Origin: Anaerolineae bacterium
GTDB lineage: Bacteria > Chloroflexota > Anaerolineae > B4-G1 > SLSP01
NCBI GenBank assembly: GCA_003562365.1
Contig: PWVB01000205.1
Coordinates: forward strand, 1 to 33,518
DNA: 33,518 nucleotides
Reading direction: 5' to 3'
Shown: one piece after another, positions 20,820 to 25,093 of the stretch
Position numbering within the stretch: the first letter of the stretch is position 1
How the letters are laid out: every line of letters starts with the position of its first letter
Made by a program: the position numbers and the translations under genes
Notes under the pieces: generated by a model
Seen by the model: the letters and a program-made list of their open reading frames with translations, nothing else
Told to the model about the DNA's origin: nothing
Databases searched by the model: none

Positions 20820-21509
20820 ATGATACATTCATCTGTGAAAGCACTCTTGCGTTGGCTGATTCTGGTGTCTGTCCCCGTCGTTCTGACGATGGCGCTGGTT
20901 CGCCTGCTGACCATGCCATGGTTCCCGGCTTGGGTTTATCAACGCCCCGGTTTTCCTGATGATCCCTTCGGGATGTCGTCTGTAGAGCGCTTGCGGCTCG
21001 CGCGCCAGACGATTCGCTTTTTGAACACCCCTTGGTCGACGGACCTTCTAGAGGAGCTTCGCCTTCCGGATGGGCGTTTGGCCTACAATGAGCGTGAGCT
21101 GGTCCATATGCAGGATGTCAAGGCTGTCTATAATGCGCTCACCGGACTGGCATTTGCGTTGCTTATGCTGAGTGTTGCAGCGGGGTTGATCTTAGCGCGT
21201 CTGGGAGAGGACTGTGCGGTTTGGCTAGCCCTGTGTCAAGGGGGAGGGCTTAGTCTGACGATCCTTGTCAGTCTCGGAGTATGGATGGTTGCTGGATTTG
21301 ATAGCTTTTTCACCCTGTTTCACGACCTGTTTTTCGAGCCTGGAACCTGGCTCTTCTCTTACTCGGATACGCTGATCCGACTCTTTCCAATCCAGCTATG
21401 GCAAACAGCTGGTTTCCTTGTTGCAGGCGGGGTGAGCTTTCTTTCGCTAGTGTTACTTTTGGCAGGGGCAGGGCGCTATCGTCGATGTGCATCTTGTGCT
21501 TCCACTTAA
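20820..21509 (+). CDS. DUF1461 / TIGR01906-like integral membrane protein
   Basis: Four TM segments; 'YNERELVHMQDVKAVYN' and 'FDSFFTLFHDLFFEPGTWLFSYSDTLIRLFPIQLW'. Confidence 0.75.
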   Translation: MIHSSVKALLRWLILVSVPVVLTMALVRLLTMPWFPAWVYQRPGFPDDPFGMSSVERLRLARQTIRFLNTPWSTDLLEELRLPDGRLAYNERELVHMQDVKAVYNALTGLAFALLMLSVAAGLILARLGEDCAVWLALCQGGGLSLTILVSLGVWMVAGFDSFFTLFHDLFFEPGTWLFSYSDTLIRLFPIQLWQTAGFLVAGGVSFLSLVLLLAGAGRYRRCASCAST

Positions 21510-21603
21510 CGCTATACCTCTGGGCCTTCGAAGAATCTTCCCCGGTCTCTCACCGCATCCAACCGGGGCTTGATTGCATGATTACTCACGTGAAAGGAGC
21601 GCC

Positions 21604-23049
21604 GTGACGATTCAAACGCCAGACTGGGTCAAGGACGCGGTCTTCTACCAGATTTTTCCGGATCGCTTTGCGCAGAGTCCGCGGGTGTCGAAACCGAACA
21701 ACCTCGAGCCGTGGGATGCCCCACCGACCCGACGAGGTTTCAAAGGCGGTGACTTCGCCGGCATCCTGGAGCGGCTTGACTATCTGGTCGATCTTGGCAT
21801 CACTGCGATCTACTTCAACCCAATCTTCCAATCTGCGGCCAACCACCGATACCATACTCACGATTACTACCGGGTGGATCCAATCCTCGGAGGGGACGCG
21901 GCTTTTAGGGCGTTTTTGGATGCTGCCCATCGCGCGGGAATTCGGGTTGTGCTTGACGGCGTATTCAACCACGCAAGTCGAGGACTCCTGCAGTTCAATC
22001 ACATCATGGAGAATGGCGACAAGTCCCCGTATCTCGATTGGTTCATCGTGAAAGATCTGCCGCTTCGGGCTTTCGACCTTCACGTAGCACCCAACTACGC
22101 CGCTTGGTGGGGCAACCGTGAGTTGCCGAAGCTCAACACCGACAACCCCGACGTGCGCGAATTCCTGATGGATGTTGCTGAGTACTGGCTGCGCCAGGGT
22201 ATCGATGGTTGGCGCTTGGACGTGCCTTTGTAGATCGAGACGCCGGGATTCTGGGAGGAGTTTCGCCGTCGGGTTAAGGCGATCAACCCCGAGGCATATA
22301 TCCTGGCGGAGATCTGGGACGCGGCCGAAGCGTGGTTGCAGGGGGACCACTTTGACGCCGTGATGGCCTATGGGTTCAACCGGGCCTGCTATGGATTCTT
22401 TGGCGGTAACTGGCTTGATGTCTCGCATAGGCCCGGCGGATTCAAAGTCCAGTCCATGCAGGGGCCACGTTTTGCCAAGGAGATCAACCATCTGCTCAGC
22501 CTCTACGACTGGGAGGTCACGCTAGCCCAGTACAATCTCCTGAGTAGCCACGACGAACCACGTTTTGTCACCATGGTGCAGGGCGATGTTCGGCGCCTGC
22601 GCCTGGCGATACTTTTCCAGATGGCTTTTCCGGGGGTTCCCGCGATCTACTATGGCGACGAAATCGGTATGACAGGTGGGCCTGATCCGGATTGTAGGGG
22701 AGCTTTCCCTTGGGATGAGCGCCAGTGGGACCTCAATCTGCACGCAGATGTCCGGAGGTTCATTGCCCTGCGCCATGCACACTCTGCCCTGCGTCGTGGA
22801 GCCTTTCGAGAGCTGGCAGTGACCGAGTCGACCTATGCTTTTGCGCGTACGGATGTGACGGAGACAGTTATCGTGGTCCTGAATGCTGGAGAGGTTCCGG
22901 TCGATCTGTGCGTCGAGGTAAGTGGCGTTGTGCCTCCCGGTCGTCGACTTGTGGAGGCGTGGTCTGATGTGCCGGCAGACCTACAGGAGGGACGGCTGCG
23001 ATGTCACCTTCCTGACTTGGATGGACGGGTCTTCGTGAGCGTTTCCTGA
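21604..23049 (+). pseudogene. GH13 alpha-amylase/neopullulanase-type gene with one in-frame TAG (22231-22233)
   Basis: Both halves in frame 1; 'GVFNHAS', 'GWRLDVP' (nucleophile Asp), stop, then 'ILAEIWDA' (acid/base Glu) and 'LLSSHDEPR'. Confidence 0.9.
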
Positions 23050-23137: not shown

Positions 23138-25093
23138 ATGGCAAAGATTGTGGGTATTGACCTGGGCACGACCAACTCCGTCGTCTCGGTGATGGAGGGT
23201 GGACAAGCTACAGTTGTTCCGACGGCTGAAGGCCGCCGTTTATGCCCCTCAGTGGTTGCTTTCACTAAGGGCGGCGACCGGTTGGTTGGCGATCCTGCCA
23301 AGCGTCAGGCGGTGGTAAACGCCGAGAACACAGTTTATTCGGTGAAGCGCCTGATGGGGCGTCGGGCTGATGAACCGGAGGTTGAGGTCACCCGTGAAAT
23401 GGTGTCCTATGAGATCGTAGCAGGATCTCAAAACGACGCGCGTGTGCGTGTCCCGGTTCAGGATAAAGTTTATACGCCGCAGGAGATCTCTGCAATGATC
23501 CTGCAGAAGCTGAAGACCGACGCTGAATCCTATCTGGGTGAGCCGGTCAACCAAGCGGTGATCACCGTTCCTGCTTACTTCAACGATAGCCAGCGCCAGG
23601 CAACCAAAGACGCCGGTCAGATTGCCGGCCTGGAGGTCACGCGGATCATTAACGAGCCAACCGCCGCCGCGCTAGCCTATGGGCTGGATAAGGCGAAAGA
23701 TGAGACCATTTTGGTCTTCGACCTGGGCGGCGGTACTTTTGACGTATCGATCCTAGAGGTGGGGGAGGGCCTGATCGAGGTCAAATCCACCAACGGTGAT
23801 ACGCATCTGGGCGGCGATGATTGGGATGAGCGTATCGTTCGCTGGATGTTGGATCAGTTCAAAAAGGAGCAGGGGATAGACATTTCCAAGGACCGTCAGG
23901 CGATGCAGCGCCTGCGCGAGGCTTCTGAGAAGGCCAAGATTGAGCTCTCCACAATGATGGAGACCGATATCAACCTGCCCTACATCACGGCGGACGCGAC
24001 GGGTCCGAAGCATCTACAGGTGAGTCTGACGCGTTCCAAGTTCGAGCAGTTAACCGACGATCTTGTGGATCGTTGTCGTCGACCGTTTGAGCGCGCGCTA
24101 TCTGATGCTAAGATTTCTGCTGATGAGTTAGATCAGGTTGTGCTGGTTGGCGGTGCAACCCGGATGCCGATGATCCAGGAGTTGGTGCGCAACCTCACCG
24201 GTGGTAAGGAACCCCATAAGGGGGTTAATCCTGATGAGGTTGTCTCCATTGGTGCGGCGATTCAGGCCGGTGTTTTGGCCGGTGACGTTACCGACATTCT
24301 TCTCCTGGACGTGACTCCGCTCTCCTTGGGCGTGGAGACTTTGGGCGGTCGGATGACAACGCTGATCCCGCGCAATACGACAGTCCCGGTCAAGAAAAGT
24401 GAGACCTTCACCACTGCCGAGGACAATCAGACGGCAGTTGATATCAAGGTCTATCAGGGTGAGCGCCCTATGGCGGACGATAACATGTTGCTTGGGCAGT
24501 TCAGGTTGGATGGGATTCCGCCTGCGCCTCGGGGGGTCCCGCAGATCGAGGTGACGTTTGACATTGATGCGAACGGCATCCTAAACGTGAAGGCACAGGA
24601 CAAGGCGACCGGTCGGGAGCAGCATATCGCGATCACCGCGACTACGAATCTGAACGAGGAAGAGGTCGAGCGCCTTGTTGAGGAGGCCAAGCTTCACCAG
24701 GAGGAGGACCGCAAGCGCCAAGAGCTGGTGGATGCTCGCAACGAGGCAGATGGGATAACTCATCAGATCGAACGGACGATGGAGGAGCTGGGCGAGAAGG
24801 TGCCTGGCGAGGTCCGTTCGGAGCTAGAGGGCCTGATCAGCGATCTGCGCGAAATCAAAGACACTAGCGATGATCCGGAAGCCATCCGTCGTAAGATTGA
24901 GCAGGTGCGCAAAGCTGCGATGAAGATGGGCGAACAAGCGTATGGTCAGCCCGGTGCCGGCCCGACGCCTGGTCCGGAAGTTGGGCCTGGCTACGGCCCT
25001 GGTCCTGGTCCCGGTGCCGCCGGTCCGAGCGATGGGGATGAGGCTGGTGAGGGCCCTGAAGTGGTTGAGGGAGAGTACCGAGAGGTCAGCTAA
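23138..25093 (+). CDS. dnaK: Molecular chaperone DnaK (Hsp70)
   Basis: '[17 protein letters not shown]', '[15 protein letters not shown]', '[15 protein letters not shown]', '[17 protein letters not shown]'. Confidence 0.98.

Follow-up and report, generated by a model that had tools for sequence, protein, structure and literature searches.

A GH13 gene of the neopullulanase/cyclomaltodextrinase type, encoded on contig PWVB01000205.1 of an uncultured Anaerolineae-type bacterium, was found to be interrupted by an in-frame TAG codon, and a recent nonsense mutation has probably inactivated this gene, whose enzyme appears to have been dispensable. The window analysed here is the whole 33,518 nt stretch of DNA from this contig, to which all positions refer; the genome it belongs to was labelled G000 in the comparisons. 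The gene lies between lit and dnaK, and its features are listed in Table 1.

The interrupted GH13 gene

When the TAG was translated as a residue, the frame comprised 481 codons, opening with GTG at 21,604 bp and closing with TGA. The first-pass annotation had described an amylase broken once, between the catalytic nucleophile and the acid/base, in a protein that was otherwise intact and kept all three catalytic acids. Translation of 21,604 bp–23,049 bp agreed with this description throughout: the TAG was the sole internal stop, it was located four residues past the nucleophile D206 and before the acid/base E236, and D206, E236 and D317 were all present provided that the stop was read through. 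The frame was open to the terminal TGA and no second lesion or sign of decay was found elsewhere within it.

Table 1. Features of the GH13 locus in the 33,518 nt window
Feature	Position (bp)	Strand	Basis
Lit-family gene (PF07314), upstream neighbour, synteny conserved	20,820–21,509	+	Locus comparison
Probable ribosome-binding site (AAAGGAG) of the GH13 gene	21,593–21,599	+	Reading of the sequence; inference
GH13 neopullulanase/cyclomaltodextrinase-like gene with one in-frame TAG inside	21,604–23,049	+	Sequence, translation, Pfam, structure matches, G001 orthologue
N-terminal stretch of 209 codons with the initial portion of the catalytic barrel, last codon three residues past nucleophile D206	21,604–22,230	+	Motif positions
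Premature TAG, codon 210 of 481	22,231–22,233	+	Translation and orthologue codons
Downstream frame, otherwise undamaged, with acid/base E236 (22,309–22,311) and D317 (22,552–22,554)	22,234–23,049	+	Translation, motifs, conservation comparison
dnaK, downstream neighbour	23,138–25,093	+	Locus comparison

The Pfam Alpha-amylase model matched residues 16–370 of the translation (E = 1.4e-65). The nearest solved structures were 2wc7 (E = 9e-151) and 2z1k (E = 1.8e-148), and those ranking next were neopullulanases, maltogenic amylases and cyclomaltodextrinases. These matches confirmed the GH13 amylase assignment made in the first-pass annotation and showed that the frame is not a chance open reading frame. 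The fifth conserved region read LPKLN at residue 174, which is close to MPKLN, the signature, also with lysine in the middle, of this region in the GH13 neopullulanase group (PMC9781549). The window gene shared with this group (CAZy GH13_20-like: cyclomaltodextrinase, maltogenic amylase and neopullulanase) the D/E/D catalytic acids and its nearest structures, but differed from it in being interrupted by a TAG. An N-terminal CBM34 domain, typical of GH13_20, was absent from the window protein, for which Pfam gave the catalytic and C-terminal domains only. There is no room for a CBM34 domain here, as the protein starts directly at the catalytic domain, and the same is true of the unbroken relatives and of 2wc7 and 2z1k. 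Codon 210 presumably corresponds to a glutamate in the second conserved region of maltogenic amylases, which is of the VANE type. The ancestral product was probably an intracellular neopullulanase/cyclomaltodextrinase-like enzyme.

Codon 210 in related genomes

The best orthologues from a search of 60 related genomes, which reached 73% identity along the entire protein, were free of internal stops; the named relatives in the GTDB genomes were mostly metagenome assemblies of Anaerolineae and other Chloroflexota. Within the genus, the unbroken orthologue of G001 showed 73% identity, and that of G003, a partial gene cut by a contig end, showed 80% identity and covered codon 210, which read GAG. 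Across the orthologous loci compared in the family and the order, codon 210 was GAG or GAA, the sole exception being GAT (Asp) in G005. The first-pass annotation had expected GAG (Glu) in place of the TAG and had proposed a comparison with close relatives, which upheld the expectation: all other orthologues had a sense codon at this position. The same TAG was seen in no second genome among the relatives whose loci were compared.

As the relatives have GAG or GAA at codon 210, a single base separates the window TAG from the ancestral codon. The family orthologues read VP-L-E-I around this codon, with the Leu-Glu pair encoded by CTG, TTG or CTT followed by GAG or GAA, where the window has TTG-TAG. 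Leucine therefore precedes glutamate normally in this lineage, and the leucine before the stop lies outside the lesion. Since only one base differs from the Leu-Glu codons of the relatives, we rejected the idea that TTG-TAG arose by a frameshift or by transposed bases.

Under the preferred reading, one G-to-T substitution turned codon 210 from GAG into TAG and would recently have cut the product to 209 residues. The barrel of the truncated protein would be incomplete, and the protein would lack the acid/base and the third catalytic acid and would most likely be inactive and degraded; we infer that it does not fold into an active enzyme. The downstream part is equally open, and the catalytic acids are complete between the two parts, as they would be if two separately translated polypeptides assembled into an active enzyme. 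This is highly improbable, as the break falls inside the catalytic barrel, three residues past the nucleophile. Furthermore, translation could restart no earlier than at a TTG at 22,336 bp, which lies 34 codons on, already past E236, and has no evident ribosome-binding site, and no relative with such a split was found among the 60 genomes searched.

Recoding and readthrough of TAG

The window gene resembles known cases of amber recoding (pyrrolysine, suppressor tRNAs and TAG-reassigned codes) in having an in-frame TAG inside a conserved protein; its genome is unlike theirs. Release factor 1, which reads TAG, was intact and scored 502.6 bits, above its cut-off of 423. The best match to pyrrolysyl-tRNA synthetase (PylS) reached 23.8 bits, far below the cut-off of 178. 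The Rfam model identified 37 tRNA matches in the genome, which is approximately 97% complete. ARAGORN found no CUA, Sup or Pyl tRNA in these matches or in the sampled stretches, and none of the candidates from a search by sequence pattern resembled a CUA tRNA, as judged from the matched letters. The suppressor tRNA that the first-pass annotation had suggested looking for was thus found by neither method.

A sample of 223 kb of the genome was used to assess stop usage. TAG terminated 57 of the 170 long ORFs in this sample, the remainder ending in TGA (92/170) or TAA (21/170). The open extensions past the three stops were similarly short, with a median of 20 codons for TAG against 16–17 for the other stops. 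Further in-frame TAGs in conserved genes, also proposed as a check, formed no pattern: among 152 domain matches (116 to ABC transporters and 36 to permeases), two contained internal stops, both being weak permease fragments, and no other intact conserved gene interrupted by TAG was found in these two families. Together, the release factor, tRNA, PylS and stop-usage tests ruled out TAG recoding.

Programmed or suppressor-mediated readthrough, by which the TAG at a conserved glutamate of the active-site region would act as a regulated switch yielding full-length enzyme, would fit the intact frame past the stop, the downstream protein, which looks constrained, and the RNA after the TAG, which folded slightly better than shuffled sequences (z about -2). 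The same folding test gave z = -2.07 for the unbroken gene of G016 and z = -2.59 elsewhere in the same GH13 gene. Folding downstream of the TAG is thus not distinctive, and an RNA readthrough element was rejected. Taken with the sense codon in all other orthologues, the intact release factor and the ordinary use of TAG as a stop, this makes such a switch very unlikely. Low-level near-cognate readthrough, which might yield small amounts of full-length enzyme carrying some residue besides glutamate at position 210 and so tune the balance of hydrolysis and transfer, is likewise very unlikely and is required by no observation. Amber readthrough and the two-part enzyme are both unsupported by positive evidence. 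The first-pass annotation had offered three options, of which a very recent pseudogene and a sequencing error survived. The third, amber readthrough, was not supported, given the release factor, the lack of a detected CUA tRNA or PylS, and TAG serving as an ordinary stop. Were readthrough real, the gene would hold an unexpected amber switch of its own, but the evidence runs against it; a lone in-frame TAG in a draft genome should not be taken for recoding.

Absence of measurable decay

Private changes at otherwise invariant sites numbered three in G000 and three in its intact sister G001. Lineage-specific changes showed no difference before and after the stop in relative-rate counts (Fisher p 0.33–1.0). 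The G000 branch measured 0.359 after the stop versus 0.148 before it, and the whole tree 6.06 versus 3.72; the longer G000 branch after the stop was not matched by a significant excess in the relative-rate counts. Saturation of synonymous sites, even within the genus, left codon-based dN/dS without information. The absence of measurable decay is consistent with a very recent lesion or an error, and the stop is younger than the split from G001, or else an error.

An error would mean that the TAG stems from a wrong consensus or base call, or from a minority strain, and that cells in the living population carry a sense codon and make a working enzyme. The change is of a single base in an otherwise undamaged gene, relaxed constraint was not detected in the G000 gene, and the assembly consists of 570 contigs with an estimated contamination of 4.84%. 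With no second lesion and no second genome carrying the same TAG, a wrong base in such an assembly is the main alternative, although we consider it the less likely case. In-frame stops were rare in the assembly, as the domain matches above showed, and loss of the gene from other members of the genus makes a real inactivation plausible. The TAG is probably real in the organism.

Loss of the gene within the genus

The locus order was minC-lit-[GH13]-dnaK, with the GH13 gene located between lit and dnaK in the window, in G001 and in other family members. Four same-genus genomes were compared, and in two of them, G002 and G004, the gene was cleanly missing from this locus: dnaK directly followed lit, with approximately 100–185 bases between them. 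The lit-dnaK interval of these genomes contained no recognisable GH13 sequence, and a search for an orthologue elsewhere in them returned distant GH13 matches only. G002 and G004 were sisters in the tree (99% support), apart from G000 and G001, which grouped together with 75% support; the deletion and the window stop are therefore separate events, and the genus has seen at least one further loss. GH13 paralogues were present elsewhere in the window genome. Within the genus the gene is dispensable, and separate lineages are losing it independently.

The absence of the gene from the corresponding locus of G002 and G004 favours the pseudogene option. Like an ordinary nonsense pseudogene, the window gene is dispensable and intact apart from a single premature stop, is unbroken in relatives, and has been cleanly lost at this locus in related genomes; it is unlike one in that a single genome carries the lesion, which may be an assembly error. 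The finding is an ordinary one, correctly observed, and its importance beyond G000 is small. It provides a case of a dispensable sugar-metabolism gene lost independently in one genus, by one clean loss and one probable nonsense mutation.

Other features of the window and its genome

The region between 1420 bp and 4851 bp encoded a protein of 1143 amino acids whose central part contained an NBR1-type Ig-like domain (PF16158); its C-terminal part was glycosidase-like and had no Pfam match. An IS605 OrfB/TnpB-like gene with a Cas12f1-like TNB domain (5028 bp–6242 bp) was located directly before an Obg-type GTPase gene. Its zinc-ribbon cysteines look partly lost, and it is possibly a degenerate copy.

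Two different tRNA-Trp (CCA) genes were present on contigs C394 (L041) and C283 (L043) of G000; one of them may be a genuine additional copy or may lie on a contig from contamination. Additionally, the 3′-end of a tRNA-Arg (TCT) gene in the window (32,378 bp–32,453 bp) overlapped one end of a minus-strand ORF of 282 amino acids (32,433 bp–33,281 bp), namely where that ORF terminates, near the contig end. This ORF had no Pfam match and reads like the C-terminal part of a serine recombinase, and an element may have integrated at the tRNA-Arg gene.
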